Positions 3,396-10,191 of a stretch of DNA of 64,000 nucleotides are shown piece after piece; the first letter of the stretch is position 1; each line of letters starts with the position of its first letter. The notes below the pieces were generated by a model. It saw only the letters and a list, made by a program, of their open reading frames with translations, was not told where the DNA came from and ran no database searches. The stretch comes from Flavobacteriia bacterium. GTDB taxonomy: Bacteria > Bacteroidota > Bacteroidia > Flavobacteriales_D > Crocinitomicaceae. The position numbers were made by a program, and so were the translations under genes. The stretch is from contig CANFHU010000007.1 in the NCBI GenBank assembly GCA_947446925.1, forward strand, positions 54,905 to 118,904. The letters run 5' to 3'.

Positions 3396-4682
3396 CTACA
3401 GATCTTCTAAAAATTTCACTACCTCCTCAAAACTTGGTCGTTCCATCACTACTTCTAGCATACATTGCTCAGATAGTTTAATCAGCGATGCTTTACCTTC
3501 TTCATTGTCATGCATTAGCGATGCAATATCTTGCACTAAACAACCAAAAGCACGTACATCCAAACGTTCTAAATAAGGGGCTATTTCCGAGTTGTTATCA
3601 TAAAAAGTGGCAGCTCCAAAATCACCAAAATAAGCCTTTCCTTCCGAATTGTATAAGGTGTTGTGCGCATATAAATCCCCATGCATAATTCCTCGTGCAT
3701 GCAGGTGTTTAGCTGCTTGTAAGACTCCTTTAAGTATACATAATCCTTTGGTAAACGTAAACTTTTGATCTCTAGAAAAAACATCACGGGTACATGTGGC
3801 AAAACTTGGTGGTTGACCCAAATTTCTATACTCCGAAGGAATTAACTCCATTACAATCCCTTGTTTTCCTTCTGGATGCTTTGAAATTATTCCTGTTAAA
3901 GGAACAATGTTTTCATGTAAACCAGTTGACAAACAAGTTGCTAATTCGTCATTTGGGTATCCATCACTTGTTACATCTCCTTTGAAAATTTTAATCGCCA
4001 CTTCATTTTCTCCGTCGATTATTGCTTTGCAAATAATACCAGATGCACCTTCCCCAAGTTGTTGTTCAACATGTATACGCGACCAATCGATACGTGGTAA
4101 TTGGACTTCGTTTGTCGGCAGATAGGTAGAAGGATTTCCAGAGAATGCTAACCAAGATAATTTTGGCATTTGCACTAACCAAGTTGGAATCTTAACAAGT
4201 TGGTTTGCAGAAATTCGAAGTAATTCCAAATTTTTACATTGTGCTAATTCCTCTGGTAATTCTGTTAAACGATTCCCAGCCAACATGCATTTTTGTAATT
4301 GTTGATGTTGACCTATTGATTTCGGTAATTTATCAATACAATTATCGGTTAACGTCAACCACTGAATGTTTAATGGAATTGAATTTTCAGGAAATTCGAT
4401 CAATTGATTTGACTTAAAACCTATCATCGTCAATGCAGGACAATCGGCTAATTGTTTGGGAAAAACAGTAAACTTATTTTGCGAAAAAAAAGCAATTTTC
4501 AATTTGGTAAAACGGTACATATCTTCCGGTAAACTAGATAGTTGATTACCAGATAAATCAAGGATTTCTATAGTTTCAGCATAGTCAAATAAAACTTGTG
4601 GAAATTCTGTTAATCCACATGAAAGTGTAATTCTTGTTGGATTCGAAAAGTTCCCTGATTGTAGGTCTTTTAAAGTCGTCAT
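3396..4682 (-). CDS. Leucine-rich-repeat protein kinase
   Basis: N-terminal LRRs (LDLSGNQLSSLPEDM..., LLRISANQLVKIPTWL) and kinase motifs LGEGASG, AIKIFK, HGDLYAHN, GDFGAA. Confidence 0.9.
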   Translation of the reverse strand: MTTLKDLQSGNFSNPTRITLSCGLTEFPQVLFDYAETIEILDLSGNQLSSLPEDMYRFTKLKIAFFSQNKFTVFPKQLADCPALTMIGFKSNQLIEFPENSIPLNIQWLTLTDNCIDKLPKSIGQHQQLQKCMLAGNRLTELPEELAQCKNLELLRISANQLVKIPTWLVQMPKLSWLAFSGNPSTYLPTNEVQLPRIDWSRIHVEQQLGEGASGIICKAIIDGENEVAIKIFKGDVTSDGYPNDELATCLSTGLHENIVPLTGIISKHPEGKQGIVMELIPSEYRNLGQPPSFATCTRDVFSRDQKFTFTKGLCILKGVLQAAKHLHARGIMHGDLYAHNTLYNSEGKAYFGDFGAATFYDNNSEIAPYLERLDVRAFGCLVQDIASLMHDNEEGKASLIKLSEQCMLEVVMERPSFEEVVKFLEDL

Positions 4683-4789: not shown

Positions 4790-6970
4790 TTATTCCATTT
4801 GATTTTTTACTAATTCAAAATACTTTCCTTTTTGAGAAAGTAATTCATGGTGGTTACCTTTTTCGACTAATTTTCCTTCATGCATCACTAAAATCATATC
4901 GGCATTTTTCACTGTACTTAAACGATGTGCAACCAAAATGACGGTTTTACCAATAAAATAATGGTGTAAATTTTTCATTATTTGCGCTTCGTTTTCCGTA
5001 TCTAAGGCGGAAGTAGCTTCATCAAAAATAAAATAGGCTGCTTTTTTGTAGACTGCCCGAGCAATCAATACACGTTGCTTTTGACCACCACTCAATTGTA
5101 AGCCATTGACACCAATTTTAGTTTCTAAATTCCCTCTAAGATTGTCCCTGACAAATTCTGTAAGATTTGCAATTTCAATGGCAAGTTGGAATCGTTCCAA
5201 ATCAATTTCTTCTTCGTTTCCTAAAATAATATTGTATAAAAAAGATTGATCAAAAAGATATCCTTGTTGCATCACGGTTGAAAGTTGACTTCGTAACACT
5301 CTAGAAGGCAGTTGGTTCAAGGCATGATTACCTATCTTTAATTCCCCTTCATATTCTTGATAATAACCTAAAATTAAGCGTAATATCGTCGTTTTCCCAC
5401 TCCCGCTCTCCCCTACAATGGCAGTCGTTTTTCCTACAGGAATTACCAAATTTAAGTCTTGAATCATTGATTTATATTGACCATAATATTTAAAATTAAA
5501 AGAACTAAAAACAATATCCCCAGGAATTAACTCCATACTTGTTGTTGAATTTTCTTCTTTCAATAATTGAATACTCAACAAACGATTCATACTTAACTTC
5601 GCTTCTTGTAAAGAATGTGCAAAAGTTAAAAGTTGATTCAACGGATTCGTCGCTTGACCCAACACGAATGACAAACTCAGTAAACCTCCAAAAGAAAGTT
5701 GCTCGTTCATAACTAGTTGTGCTGCTAGGTAGGTAATTATAATGTTCTTTCCAGATTGAAAAAACGAATAACCTATGGATTGAAACATGTCGATTTTCGT
5801 GCTTTTCAGAGAAAGTTTAACCGAATCCTGTTGGGTTGTTTTCCAATTCGCATTTTGTTGTTCTTCCACTCCAAACAACTTTACGTCTTGTATTCCTCCA
5901 ACGATCTCGTGAAGAATATTCTGACTCTCCACGTGTTTTTGAAATTGTAAATATTCCACTTTTCTACGTTTAGCTTGAAATGCATACATCCAAACAATTC
6001 CGAGTAGTATACTAACTATGAAAATAGTAAATATGGTCACACCATACATCCAAACCACAAACGAATAGATGATAATATTGGTAACCGAAAACAAAGTATT
6101 AACTAGATCAGAAGTCAAAAACTGCTCCAATCGCGAGTGGTCATTGATTCGTTGTGAAAGATCTCCATATGATTTTGCGTCAAAAAATCGCATCGGTAAT
6201 TTGAACAATTTCTGAAGAAAATCTTGAATAATATCTAGACCAATTTTACCTGAAACATAGGTCGTTAACCAGGTTCTAAAAAATGAGATCAATGAATCTC
6301 CAAAAAATAACCCGAGTTGAGAAAAGAGTAACAATTGAAGTAGTTGTTCATTTTTAAATTTCATTGCTTTGTCAACCATCAACTGAGTTGTGTAAGGAAT
6401 AATCAACGTGACTGCACTTGCTAAAATCATCAATCCGATGATTTGTAAAAATTGACGATAATAGGTTTTGATGTATTTGAGAGTGTATTTCGAAACTTCA
6501 AAATTACGTTGTTGGTTTTTCAAATTATCGAAAGCAGCTTCTTTGGTGAAAAGCATTACATAGCCAAAATCTGCATCCTGTTTCAAAAAGTGTTTTACAA
6601 AAACAGCTTTCGTAATCTTATGTTTTTTAAAAGCCGGGTCAGCAATGTAATAATAGGTTGTACGACCAATGTTTTTCACCTTGTACAATACGACAAAATG
6701 GTTATTGTTCCAATGAAGTATACAAGGTAATGCCTCCTCCGAAAAATCATCCACGCCCATCCGAATTGCTGAGCTTGACATACCCAGTTGCTGAGCAGCG
6801 GTCGACAAACTCATAAAATCGATGCCCAATACAGACTTTTGACAAAGTTCATTTAAATAGTCTAAAGAATACTTAGCACCGAAGTAGCGCGCTACCATAG
6901 ACAAACAAGCGGTACCACAGTCGGTACTATCTATTTGTCGGATAAATTTTATTTTTCGAGAGGAGAACAT
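4790..6970 (-). CDS. Peptidase-containing ABC transporter (C39 peptidase + TMD + NBD)
   Basis: N-terminal C39 domain (IRQIDSTDCGTACLSMVARYFG; HWNNNHFVVLYK), NBD Walker A GESGSGKTT, signature LSGGQKQR, Walker B AYFIFDEATSALD. Confidence 0.95.
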   Translation of the reverse strand: MFSSRKIKFIRQIDSTDCGTACLSMVARYFGAKYSLDYLNELCQKSVLGIDFMSLSTAAQQLGMSSSAIRMGVDDFSEEALPCILHWNNNHFVVLYKVKNIGRTTYYYIADPAFKKHKITKAVFVKHFLKQDADFGYVMLFTKEAAFDNLKNQQRNFEVSKYTLKYIKTYYRQFLQIIGLMILASAVTLIIPYTTQLMVDKAMKFKNEQLLQLLLFSQLGLFFGDSLISFFRTWLTTYVSGKIGLDIIQDFLQKLFKLPMRFFDAKSYGDLSQRINDHSRLEQFLTSDLVNTLFSVTNIIIYSFVVWMYGVTIFTIFIVSILLGIVWMYAFQAKRRKVEYLQFQKHVESQNILHEIVGGIQDVKLFGVEEQQNANWKTTQQDSVKLSLKSTKIDMFQSIGYSFFQSGKNIIITYLAAQLVMNEQLSFGGLLSLSFVLGQATNPLNQLLTFAHSLQEAKLSMNRLLSIQLLKEENSTTSMELIPGDIVFSSFNFKYYGQYKSMIQDLNLVIPVGKTTAIVGESGSGKTTILRLILGYYQEYEGELKIGNHALNQLPSRVLRSQLSTVMQQGYLFDQSFLYNIILGNEEEIDLERFQLAIEIANLTEFVRDNLRGNLETKIGVNGLQLSGGQKQRVLIARAVYKKAAYFIFDEATSALDTENEAQIMKNLHHYFIGKTVILVAHRLSTVKNADMILVMHEGKLVEKGNHHELLSQKGKYFELVKNQME

Positions 6971-6987
6971 TAGGTATTAATTGATTA

Positions 6988-7061
6988 GAGAAGCAAGGAT
7001 AAGTTTGTAAATTTTAATGAGGTTAACCTCATATCAGTTGATTTGTCCTTCCTTGCTTCTC
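6988..7061. promoter_or_regulatory. Long-loop inverted repeat between a GG-peptide gene and the transporter gene, with an internal palindrome
   Basis: GAGAAGCAAGGA (6988-6999) and TCCTTGCTTCTC (7050-7061); loop contains ATGAGGTTAACCTCAT. Confidence 0.6.
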
Positions 7062-7075
7062 AAGGTTATTAGATA

Positions 7076-7222
7076 TTACCAAAAAATTGTAACCGTAAAT
7101 GTAGTTGTAGTTTTAGTCGTAGTTTTTGATGCCACGATTGCAATTTTTCTTGGAGTTGTAGCTGATTCTAAACCTCCCATAATTACTAATTGTTCTTCGA
7201 TTGTGATTAATTGATTTTTCAT
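7076..7222 (-). CDS. Double-glycine leader peptide 1, Thr-rich core
   Basis: Not in the ORF track; MKNQLITIEEQLVIMGG|LESATTPRKIAIVASKTTTKTTTTFTVTIFW; I(-12), E(-8), I(-4), GG fit the C39 leader consensus. Confidence 0.8.
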   Translation of the reverse strand: MKNQLITIEEQLVIMGGLESATTPRKIAIVASKTTTKTTTTFTVTIFW

Positions 7223-7288
7223 TTTTTAAAATTTAAATTGTTATAAAATATTCCTTTAAGTTTTACCACATCAAAGGATTACGGTGGT

Positions 7289-7298
7289 GATGTACATC
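7289..7298. promoter_or_regulatory. GATGTACATC palindrome 67 nt upstream of GG-peptide 1
   Basis: Perfect 10-bp palindrome within a conserved block shared with 7589-7598. Confidence 0.65.
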
Positions 7299-7356
7299 GC
7301 TTATCGAAATCGATTTAAGGCCCTACGACTTCAATGCGAATATTTTTTTTCTCTTA

Positions 7357-7524
7357 TTAATAACTAATAATCGGAGTGAATGTTGTTGGAAAAGGATTAG
7401 GATTATATGGAGGCGTTCCCGTTGGAAATGGCAATTTTGGTTTTCTAGGACCGATTTCATTTCCACCCATAACTTTTCCTAACTCATCTATCGCAATAGA
7501 TGCAGTGTTTGTTTTATTGTTCAT
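7357..7524 (-). CDS. Double-glycine leader peptide 2, Pro-rich core
   Basis: Not in the ORF track; MNNKTNTASIAIDELGKVMGG|NEIGPRKPKLPFPTGTPPYNPNPFPTTFTPIISY; I(-12), E(-8), L(-7), V(-4), GG. Confidence 0.85.
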   Translation of the reverse strand: MNNKTNTASIAIDELGKVMGGNEIGPRKPKLPFPTGTPPYNPNPFPTTFTPIISY

Positions 7525-7588
7525 CTTAAAAAAATTACATTGATTTTCTGTTCACCAAAGTTTATTCACATTCGGTGTTCCTGGTGAC

Positions 7589-7598
7589 GATGTACATC
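7589..7598. promoter_or_regulatory. GATGTACATC palindrome 65 nt upstream of GG-peptide 2
   Basis: Second copy, exactly 300 bp from the first. Confidence 0.65.
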
Positions 7599-7650
7599 AG
7601 TTCTTAAAGTCTTTTTGGGCCTTCGACTTTAATCTCTAATAAGTAGGTGA

Positions 7651-10017
7651 TTATTCTTTTGTACGTTCGATTTCTTCGGTGTTTTTGATCTCACGATCTT
7701 CCACTTGCACTTTAGTATTTCCAAAATTATAAGTCAATGAAAAACGAGCTGAACGTTGATCTTGATAATTCATTACATCCAACAACACTCCGTTAGAATA
7801 CATTTGCAATTTTGGTCTCATAGATCGAAAAATATCGTTAAATGTAATCCCTAATACAAACTTCTTATTCTTTGTGCGATACAAAAACCCTGGATTTATA
7901 GTATAGAACGTTTGCATTTTCACTAATCCAGTTATTCCAGGAAAACTATATATTACTCCCAAATTCATTGTCAATCCTTTTAATGGCATTTTTATCTGAT
8001 TGTTAAGATTTATGGAAGAACTGAATCCTTTTAAGGAAGAGTAAGTGATTTCAGAATTGGAATATGAATTGGAGTAAATTAAATCCCATTGAACATCAGA
8101 TTGTATTACCCTGTTTTTTATGGAATATACCGAAGCTAATGATAGGATGTCAGAAGTTAAAAAATTCAGATTAGTATATACTTGTGTATTTGTTTTTTGA
8201 TCGACAATTGGAATTTGGCTATATAAATTCTCATTATGAGAATAATTTAAAGTACTCGAAAATTTGTCTTTAAAAATATAGTAAATGTCGATGTTGTTTG
8301 TAAATGAAGGTCTAAGAAATGGATTACCGATTGAATACTGATTTGCATTCATATACAATCTAAAAGGATTTAATTCTGAATAATTTGGTCTGTCGATTCT
8401 CCTAGAGTAAGACCCTCCTAAATATACCTCTTCTTTCAAAGCATAGAGCACATATAAAGACGGGAAAAATTTCAAATAATTATAGTTATTTACAGTATTG
8501 TAAGTAAATGACTTACTTTCAATGATCGAATTCTCCGCACGTATGCCAGCACTAATTTCCAACTTATTGAATGATTTAGAAAACGTAAAATACAAAGATT
8601 GAATCTTTTCATTATACAAAAACTTATCTTTTTCAAGAAGTTGTGGCAAATTATTTACTTTATACTCATTATCAAAAAAATTAAGATTTTCATTACTGCT
8701 AAGCCTTCCTCCAGTAGAAATTAAAAATTTCTCAAAAGGCAATTCAAAATCTACATCTAAAGAATTAGATAATACCTCCTGTATACTTGATGTTTGTATA
8801 GTAGACAAATTATATGGTGAAAATAAAAATTGTGTATAACTTTCGACTAATCGATTTTTGGATTGATCATAACTGAAATTATTGTAATCTATCGACATTT
8901 TTTTTCCTAGTGTATCAAAAATGTAAGAATAATTTAATCCTGTATTGATTGACTTTAAATTAGAATTACCATCTCCAAAAGATTTTGTAATTGAATCACT
9001 AATCAAATTTCTAAGGTAATTAATATTAGTTGTATTCGTAAGTGTAGGTTGAGAAGAATTAATTTGGGTAGAAAGTACAATTCTTGATCTTTCATTAATT
9101 TTATACGTTAGATTAGCGTTATTACTTAATCCAACTTGATTGTTTTTTGCAACGGAATTATTTTGATTATTACTCGTTGGTAATTTCAAATCAACATCTA
9201 TTAATTGTTGAAATACATTTTGACTTGCGCTTAGTCTATTCTTAAAACTTATTTTTCCCTTATTATAAGTCAGTCCTCCACTTACAGACTCTGACCAATA
9301 GGTATTTCTAGAAATTGATGAATTTACGTCTCCAGTATATCCTTTCTTCAATACCGACTTCAAAACAATATTTATAATCCCAGAAGAACCCTCAGCTTGA
9401 TATTTTGCTGGAGGATTACTTATAACTTCGATACGAGAAACATCCTCGCTTGGCACATTCATTAAATAATTGATTAAGTCTTCTCCAGCCAACTGTACCA
9501 CCTGATTATCGATGTATATGATTACTTCTCCTTTACCTACAATCTTTACGGATTTATCATCAACCCGAACTCCTGGTGTCATTGCTAACATGTTATAAAG
9601 ATTATTCCCATAGGAAATCAAAGAATTCTCCACATGAAACACCATACGATCCGCATTGCGTTTAAACACTGGTTTTTTATTATTAATAGTCGCTGCCTCT
9701 AATTGTTTGGACTTCGCCATTTCAATCACAATGGTGGTATCACTAGAAATCATGGCAACTTGCTCCGTTACCACTCCGTATTGCGAAACTTTAAACGAAT
9801 ATTCTCCTGCAATAACTTTTTGAAATACACATATTCCGCTACTATCTGTATATTCCGTTTGTAAAAAAGCATCTTGCTGACGCAATGAAACGGTTGTCAA
9901 TTCCATCCCTTTACCTTTAAAATCTATAATTTTTGTTGTAACCTTGAACTGAGCTTGTACGCTTGTTACTAGAAGACAAGAAATAAAAAAAAGGAATAAA
10001 TAGAAGTACTTTTTCAT
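7651..10017 (-). CDS. Outer membrane beta-barrel family protein (TonB-receptor-like, N-terminal carboxypeptidase-regulatory-like domain)
   Basis: Signal peptide; plug-like GVRVDDKSVKIVGKGEVIIYIDNQVVQLAGEDLINYLMNVPSEDVSRIEVISNPPAKYQAEGSSGIINIVLK. Confidence 0.9.
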   Translation of the reverse strand: MKKYFYLFLFFISCLLVTSVQAQFKVTTKIIDFKGKGMELTTVSLRQQDAFLQTEYTDSSGICVFQKVIAGEYSFKVSQYGVVTEQVAMISSDTTIVIEMAKSKQLEAATINNKKPVFKRNADRMVFHVENSLISYGNNLYNMLAMTPGVRVDDKSVKIVGKGEVIIYIDNQVVQLAGEDLINYLMNVPSEDVSRIEVISNPPAKYQAEGSSGIINIVLKSVLKKGYTGDVNSSISRNTYWSESVSGGLTYNKGKISFKNRLSASQNVFQQLIDVDLKLPTSNNQNNSVAKNNQVGLSNNANLTYKINERSRIVLSTQINSSQPTLTNTTNINYLRNLISDSITKSFGDGNSNLKSINTGLNYSYIFDTLGKKMSIDYNNFSYDQSKNRLVESYTQFLFSPYNLSTIQTSSIQEVLSNSLDVDFELPFEKFLISTGGRLSSNENLNFFDNEYKVNNLPQLLEKDKFLYNEKIQSLYFTFSKSFNKLEISAGIRAENSIIESKSFTYNTVNNYNYLKFFPSLYVLYALKEEVYLGGSYSRRIDRPNYSELNPFRLYMNANQYSIGNPFLRPSFTNNIDIYYIFKDKFSSTLNYSHNENLYSQIPIVDQKTNTQVYTNLNFLTSDILSLASVYSIKNRVIQSDVQWDLIYSNSYSNSEITYSSLKGFSSSINLNNQIKMPLKGLTMNLGVIYSFPGITGLVKMQTFYTINPGFLYRTKNKKFVLGITFNDIFRSMRPKLQMYSNGVLLDVMNYQDQRSARFSLTYNFGNTKVQVEDREIKNTEEIERTKE

Positions 10018-10191
10018 CTGTATTTTCGTTTATTTTTCTAGAACAAAACTACTAACAGATTTCACAACTACCAAATTATCAGTGTAAATCGCGTATAAAT
10101 ACGATGGTTTTCAATCGTGCTTTTTGTCAGATTTAGACAAAAAAAAGACCGCTTTCACAAGCAGTCTCTTACATTTTTTAAGTTCTATTTT

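Follow-up and report, generated by a model that had tools for sequence, protein, structure and literature searches.

The module and its two small peptide genes

The window analysed here, a 64,000-nucleotide stretch of contig CANFHU010000007.1 from a Flavobacteriia bacterium of the Crocinitomicaceae, carries on its minus strand a module that begins with a gene for an outer-membrane barrel, continues with two small peptide genes and ends with a gene for a C39 peptidase-containing ABC transporter (PCAT). The features are given below in the order in which they would be transcribed.

10143..10170, minus strand: intrinsic terminator of the preceding transcription unit, a 12-pair stem followed by a T run
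10044..10074, minus strand: Bacteroidota-type promoter, TTG-N20-TAGTTTTG, conserved before the barrel gene
7651..10017, minus strand: TonB-dependent-transporter-like barrel, 788 aa, with signal peptide, CarboxypepD_reg-like domain, plug and barrel
7551..7634, minus strand: first copy of the predicted RNA element, ahead of Pro-rich peptide A (covariance model R1, 94.6 bits)
7357..7524, minus strand: predicted precursor peptide A, 55 aa (leader 7462-7524, core 7360-7461), with a Pro-rich core in the window genome
7251..7336, minus strand: second copy of the predicted RNA element, ahead of Thr-rich peptide B (covariance model R1, 94.0 bits)
7076..7222, minus strand: predicted precursor peptide B, 48 aa (leader 7172-7222, core 7079-7171), with a Thr-rich, beta-like core in the window genome
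6988..7061, minus strand: long hairpin separating peptide B from the PCAT (-27.3 kcal/mol, z -5.8), with no poly-U tail
4790..6970, minus strand: PCAT, 726 aa, with C39 peptidase, ABC transmembrane and ABC ATPase domains (Pfam, ortholog alignment)

The two minus-strand ORFs were originally pointed out by a first-pass annotation of this DNA, and they were found where it had placed them and with the sequences it had given, including a 34-aa core with 10 Pro in peptide A. The next gene is, as it had also claimed, a C39 ABC transporter (Pfam PF03412, E 5.6e-30, followed by ABC_membrane and ABC_tran, at 4790-6970), whose start lies 105 nt past the stop of peptide B. Lack of conservation, or frameshifts in relatives, had been named as what would speak against these genes; the comparison was run, and the ORFs are kept and intact beside the orthologous transporters. 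Of the 12 other genomes in the genus, 6 have an orthologous locus, each with two or three small intact ORFs separating the barrel gene from the PCAT, which brings the peptides to 15 in seven genomes, distributed over two positional families, A and B. Moreover, a profile of the family recovered exactly these 15 loci from the 13 genus genomes (E 1e-14 to 1e-25), with nothing else above noise, and the cores of four of five close pairs showed dN/dS values of 0.18-0.31, indicative of purifying selection (0.95 in the fifth pair, with few changes). Altogether, the same location beside orthologous transporters in six congeners, the specificity of the profile and the purifying selection take the ORFs beyond chance: both are genuine protein-coding genes, overlooked by ordinary gene finding. 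No meaningful match to a known family was obtained in Pfam, NCBIfam or PHROG, including no known bacteriocin family, and to judge from their sequences the peptides are a fast-changing family of small exported peptides from an uncultured genus of Bacteroidota.

A closer view of the family shows a conserved leader followed by a divergent core. The leaders of all 15 peptides have I(-12), a hydrophobic residue at -10, E(-8), I/V(-4), a hydrophobic residue at -3 and the final GG, which extends to the whole family the pattern noticed beforehand in the window peptides (hydrophobic -12, E -8, hydrophobic -4 and GG). The hydrophobic residue at -7 (the Leu of ComA and LahT substrates), described as important in LahT (PMC6363468), is not a feature of this family: position -7 is Gln in 13 of the 15 peptides and Leu in the other two, among them peptide A of the window. 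Gln at this position counts against the best explanation proposed below; a hydrophobic -10, present in 15 of 15, may substitute for it, and, as a hydrophobic -7 is common and not universal, the assignment to the double-glycine substrates of C39 proteins and PCATs rests on the other features.

The cores predicted after a GG cut are 29-46 aa long, and all 15 carry a net charge of +2 to +4 and end in an aromatic residue, with a hydrophobic one two positions ahead of it. Other traits proposed from the two window cores turned out to be local: Pro-richness is limited to the window and G005, with 4-7 Pro in the other A cores and 0-4 in the B cores; the PRK motif common to both window cores is missing from their closest homologues; and the abundance of Thr is not conserved in the family. 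The reading as proline-rich antimicrobial peptides was therefore dropped, the Pro-rich core being found in two genomes only. The other A cores resemble LEIRPKSKSIIDQIKEAMKPTPTIPLPTIYISF, with a KSIIDQIK-type segment that looks amphipathic (by inspection only), and the B cores of the family are beta-like (for example ATATQGGFSISLEKKNTKTGTIYTVSISW), with alternating hydrophobic residues (FSISLEKKNTKTGTIYTVSISW) and aromatic ends.

With regard to transcription, a Bacteroidota-type promoter (TTG-N20-TAnnTTTG) lies 53-123 nt before the ATG of the barrel gene in all six genomes having that region, and none was found in the peptide or PCAT intergenic regions of these genomes, so that barrel, peptides and PCAT look like one operon. 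A terminator similar to that of the window (GACTGCTT...AGCGGTCTTTTTTT) is present at the same place in the other genomes having upstream sequence. The hairpin at 6988-7061 (GAGAAGCAAGGA..TCCTTGCTTCTC) recurs almost unchanged in G008 (z -3.6) and G009 (z -5.1), gives way to different and weaker hairpins in G001 and G005, and has no counterpart of such length in the short intergenic regions of G004 and G010; a possible role is that of 3' end protection or processing point. Plausibly, the structures that bracket the peptide cistrons raise or tune their expression relative to both membrane proteins.

A probable RNA element before each peptide gene

Each peptide gene is preceded by an element of ~85 nt which consists of a hairpin (P1), an invariant GUACAUC linker and an H-type pseudoknot (P2/P3), and in which AAACUU is also invariant. 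This element was absent from the first-pass annotation, as were the co-inherited barrel and the C-terminal hydrophobic-x-aromatic signature of the cores. The covariance model detects a single copy ahead of every one of the 15 peptide genes, always in the same orientation and directly before the ORF, and, given the single upstream promoter, we infer that these copies are probably intercistronic leaders in one transcript. The alignment comprises 13 copies, with 10 pairs in P1, 5 in P2 and 5 in P3, and standard pairs occupy 90% of its cells versus 26-40% after sliding the partners 1-3 columns, a percentage biased towards the structure, which was drawn by hand from the same aligned sequences. Double changes are the stronger evidence: both sides have changed in 9 of the 20 pairs, across all three helices (0-3 pairs in the slid controls), the covariation score was reached by none of 500 shuffles, and the pseudoknot pair 51-72 is seen as UA, CG and AU. 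P1 and P3 were recovered independently by RNAalifold, and copies folded one at a time depart only moderately from expectation (mean z -2.0).

The A elements of G008 and G009 fall outside the 13-copy alignment and score weakly (41-44 bits versus 85-100). Here (G008 C3:221743-221825; G009 C58:2008-2087), P1 and the linker are kept and a simple hairpin replaces the pseudoknot, which makes of both copies a natural experiment on the role of P2/P3. As the peptide stays intact where the pseudoknot has been lost, P2/P3 would be dispensable, a point that counts against the best explanation.

The distribution of the element follows that of the peptides. Under strict filters, which distant relatives may escape, no further copies were found elsewhere in the genus genomes, in 246 genomes of the family or in 399 genomes drawn from the order, and the model gave no match at 45 other PCAT loci. 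Searches of the window and the loci of its seven relatives against Rfam 15 yielded no match at the gathering score or at E up to 5, some snoRNA matches being discarded for their chance level and wrong strand, and a literature search for a known RNA of this kind returned nothing closer. The identity of the element is 71-82%, as compared with 36-45% for the cores; when A paralogs are set against B paralogs, identity falls from 71% in the element to 63% in the leader and 36% in the core. The element is thus more conserved than the peptides, and it was previously uncatalogued. In four of five pairs, the leaders also show fewer synonymous differences (pS 0.07-0.24) than the cores (0.34-0.64), a hint of constraint at the nucleotide level or of an RNA element reaching into the ORF (leaders 7462-7524 and 7172-7222 in the window), or else of leader homogenisation.

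High overall conservation, unpaired positions included, would also suit a DNA feature, such as the operator of a regulator or a recombination site for gaining or swapping peptide cassettes, and so would the palindromic GATGTACATC and GGCC and the tandem arrangement of element plus ORF, with three such cassettes in G001. That the element is a DNA feature of this sort and not a functional RNA is nevertheless quite unlikely, since compensatory changes occur in three helices (including the pseudoknot pair found as UA, CG and AU), the orientation is constant directly before the ORF within an apparent single transcript, no Bacteroidota-type promoter adjoins the element and the locus has no integrase. 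An integron-like cassette was considered too, and is retained as no more than a weak rival, given that no integrase is present and that the covariation favours RNA. A functional RNA before each peptide ORF is very probable in the light of the covariation, and cis-control of precursor expression is its likely role.

Transporter, modification and the outer-membrane barrel

The C39 catalytic set Q12, C18, H91 and D111 is invariant in an alignment of six PCAT orthologs; orthologs occur in six congeneric genomes with 66-89% identity. In the 3.15-Mb genome of the window, this PCAT is the only C39-containing transporter, other ABC matches beginning past residue 130 of the query. A second, graspetide-type PCAT system exists in G001, G005 and G010 but not in the window genome, and at L046, L047 and L048 (G001, G010) such a second PCAT accompanies HlyD and TolC-like genes, GG peptides and apparent ATP-grasp/SPASM graspetide genes. 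PADLOC matches on the PCAT and on an LRR-kinase further downstream were rejected as generic domain matches.

No LanB/C/M, rSAM or ATP-grasp gene was found at any of the seven orthologous loci, and 13 of the 15 peptides have no Cys, including both window peptides as already observed in the annotation (the other two, both B cores, have one). Its judgement that thioether lanthipeptides are unlikely is borne out by these data, and its proposal that the ORFs encode exported double-glycine peptides of the adjacent PCAT finds support in the family as well. Related PCATs of Bacteroidota adjoin rSAM, LanB/LanC or ATP-grasp genes, so the peptides might, like the substrates of those systems, be RiPPs modified by an enzyme encoded elsewhere; this is improbable, given that the seven orthologous loci have no such enzyme gene, that the cores show neither the Cys nor the repeated Thr/Glu/Asp core motifs of those systems, and that no NCBIfam RiPP precursor model matches. 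On sequence grounds, the peptides are very likely exported, GG-processed and unmodified.

The barrel protein matches PF14905 (E 5.8e-70) and, weakly, the Plug domain. In its AF2 model, built on a 17-sequence alignment (pLDDT 80.6, pTM 0.69), a plug is predicted within a large outer-membrane beta-barrel, a feature of TonB-dependent transporters, and the top Foldseek matches of the model are all proteins of that kind (PhuR, PfeA, FhuA and Cir, E 1e-18 to 9e-21); a PDB sequence search gave no match. Its ortholog exists in the 7 peptide-bearing genomes only, the other six having at most a paralog of 25-26% identity. Barrel, peptides, RNA and PCAT occur together in 7 of the 13 genomes of the genus, and the other six, some of them incomplete, have no ortholog of any of these components, an absence that counts against the best explanation.

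Of the other PCAT loci of Bacteroidota that were compared, about 35 show a full-length HlyD next to the PCAT and lack such a barrel, about 11 show the converse, a barrel with no full-length HlyD (two of the barrel matches being weak), one has both (again with a weak barrel match) and one has neither. Full-length HlyD and barrel are, in the loci sampled, almost mutually exclusive partners of the PCAT, a pattern that reflects few independent events, as the two labels are strongly clustered on the PCAT tree (2-3 changes versus about 14 when shuffled). Four of the barrel-type loci (L078, L088, L096 and L068) carry after the PCAT a short HlyD-like ORF of 160-188 aa, perhaps a reduced fusion protein, and at L057 (G041), L078, L091 and L096 an rSAM-like gene accompanies a PF14905 or CarboxypepD_reg barrel and the PCAT, L057 having four tandem GG precursors with Cys-rich, NNCxGxNC-like cores. 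In the window genome, no HlyD of the PCAT type was found at E 1e-5 and none lies beside the PCAT, whereas congeners with the graspetide-type PCAT do match; three other HlyD_3 proteins are encoded there, which makes an adaptor in trans possible and counts against the best explanation.

Two candidate roles are considered for the barrel: that of receptor or self-protection, which is possible if somewhat short of probable, and that of exit route, which we propose tentatively and with some doubt. The idea of a fusion-less export, or one through TonB-type proteins, predates the present analysis: a PCAT with an outer-membrane protein and no fusion protein has already been noted in Bacteroidales clusters (PMC10352776), and an export role for TonB-type proteins was predicted for graspetide loci (PMC8939145). 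Nothing closer was found in the literature on PF14905 with peptide export.

Proposed mechanism and comparison with known systems

The chromosomal neighbours of the module are near-identical between genomes (HAL 99%, HisS 96-98% amino acid identity), and the module itself diverges to 62-75% in the barrel and 66-89% in the PCAT. Moreover, the gene adjoining the module is closest to those of G008 (95%) and G009 (94%), and the module is closest to those of G005 and G001. At fourfold sites, the identity to G008 is 72% in the adjoining gene, 36% in the barrel and 32% in the transporter. An exchange of module alleles at one fixed place in the chromosome is probable, and such divergence with conflicting relationships would fit loci of either antagonism or recognition. 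No clean empty site is available, as the DUF2911-like flanking gene is in another context in G007 and G011. The LRR and protein-kinase protein at 3396-4682 (minus strand) was rejected as part of the system: it follows the PCAT directly in the window and in G005 alone, and with other genes lying between both in the remaining genomes it behaves as a backbone gene. It is 71-76% identical between genomes, stands beside conserved housekeeping genes, and its kinase domain has a generic similarity to MAD6.

The best explanation, which we hold as a whole to be somewhat probable, combines unmodified antagonist peptides processed by the PCAT, a barrel partner and an RNA control for each precursor cistron. 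One operon, in the order promoter - barrel - RNA element - peptide A - RNA element - peptide B - hairpin - PCAT, would give rise to two small unmodified cationic peptides. The C39 domain of the PCAT would cut the precursors after GG during export across the inner membrane, freeing cores of 29-46 aa, and the co-inherited barrel would be the outer-membrane partner, either as an exit route replacing HlyD/TolC or as a self-receptor. The cores would then be directed at close relatives, in the manner of class II microcins, as antagonists in which the C-terminal hydrophobic-x-aromatic end is conserved and the middle diversifies. On the RNA side, the pseudoknot in each intercistronic leader would set how well the precursor cistron is translated, or how stable it is, compared with the membrane-protein cistrons on either side, possibly under the influence of a signal. 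No immunity gene was recognised, which counts against this explanation. The peptides are most likely antagonistic or kin-directed, and antagonism towards relatives is moderately favoured over a signalling or a structural role.

The co-inheritance of barrel and peptides, both divergent, the predicted TonB-dependent transporter fold of the former and the allelic replacement at a fixed site would also be in line with signalling pheromones, exported by the PCAT and sensed through the TonB-type barrel, with allele-specific cores comparable to pherotypes. Such a role appears rather unlikely, since the N-terminal domain of the barrel is CarboxypepD_reg-like and not a signalling (STN) domain, and the operon has no sigma/anti-sigma pair, two-component system or regulator. 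In Pseudomonas, C39-linked export of the Fap amyloid involves FapD. The cores might similarly have a structural role, as secreted peptides that form beta structure and build assemblies at the surface or within the matrix, in keeping with the alternating hydrophobics and aromatic ends of the B cores and with the service of C39 proteases in amyloid export (PMC5557850). Against such a function, which is highly unlikely, the A cores are Pro-rich or helix-like, no curlin or Fap-like repeats are present, the peptides are very small and the divergence pattern is unlike that of a structural protein.

A more far-reaching scheme would join two-protein secretion with no HlyD/TolC (the PCAT taking the peptides over the inner membrane and a dedicated barrel over the outer one), a new class of signal-sensing pseudoknot RNA that gates precursor synthesis and a core C-terminus that mimics the outer-membrane beta-signal. 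This is a long shot, and the resemblance of the C-terminal pattern to the beta-signal is a lead only; if the scheme is true, the RNA, with its one copy per precursor gene, would sense a ligand, a protein or the export load, and the hydrophobic-x-aromatic end would direct the peptide to the BAM machine or the barrel.

As for known systems, the SAM-II riboswitch and the Downstream-peptide motif also place a hairpin plus H-type pseudoknot before an ORF; unlike them, the present element has no Rfam match and is confined to one genus and gene family. Colicin V and other class II microcins of the microcin V kind share the double-glycine leader, PCAT export and an unmodified linear peptide (here predicted from the genes), but colicin V uses a PCAT with fusion protein and TolC, and no HlyD lies beside the present PCAT. 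Bacteroidetocins, class II-like antibacterial peptides of Bacteroidota with mature forms of 42-53 aa, target BamA (PMC8546649). They are alike in their GG-cleaved leader, similar size (29-46 aa here), phylum and lack of a modification enzyme, but they resemble class IIa bacteriocins of Gram-positives, whereas the present peptides match no known family, have little or no Cys, and share their operon with a TonB-type barrel and an RNA element.

The Bacteroidales RiPP clusters BGC6-9 (PMC10352776) likewise pair a PCAT with an outer-membrane protein and lack a fusion protein, and the graspetide loci (PMC8939145) contain pfam14905; both works already bring up either a separate route of export or the participation of TonB-type proteins in export. 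Those loci encode RiPP modification enzymes, in contrast with the present module, which has none and adds an RNA element per precursor. Class I lanthipeptide-like loci of Flavobacterium and Tenacibaculum (L072, L086, L087 and L094) are similar in their tandem GG precursors, PF14905 barrel and HlyD-less PCAT, and differ in their LanB/LanC-like genes (named by size and order), their Cys-rich cores and their PCATs, 38-39% identical to this one. Altogether, this is a new precursor family of a known kind, described by no protein-family library, and unusual for the uncatalogued pseudoknot RNA together with a barrel-linked, HlyD-less PCAT. The RNA marks the precursor genes better than their coding sequence does, and could aid in finding hypervariable peptide genes missed by gene callers, while the module sharpens the question raised by the two earlier papers about a fusion-less outer-membrane export of PCAT-processed peptides in Bacteroidota.
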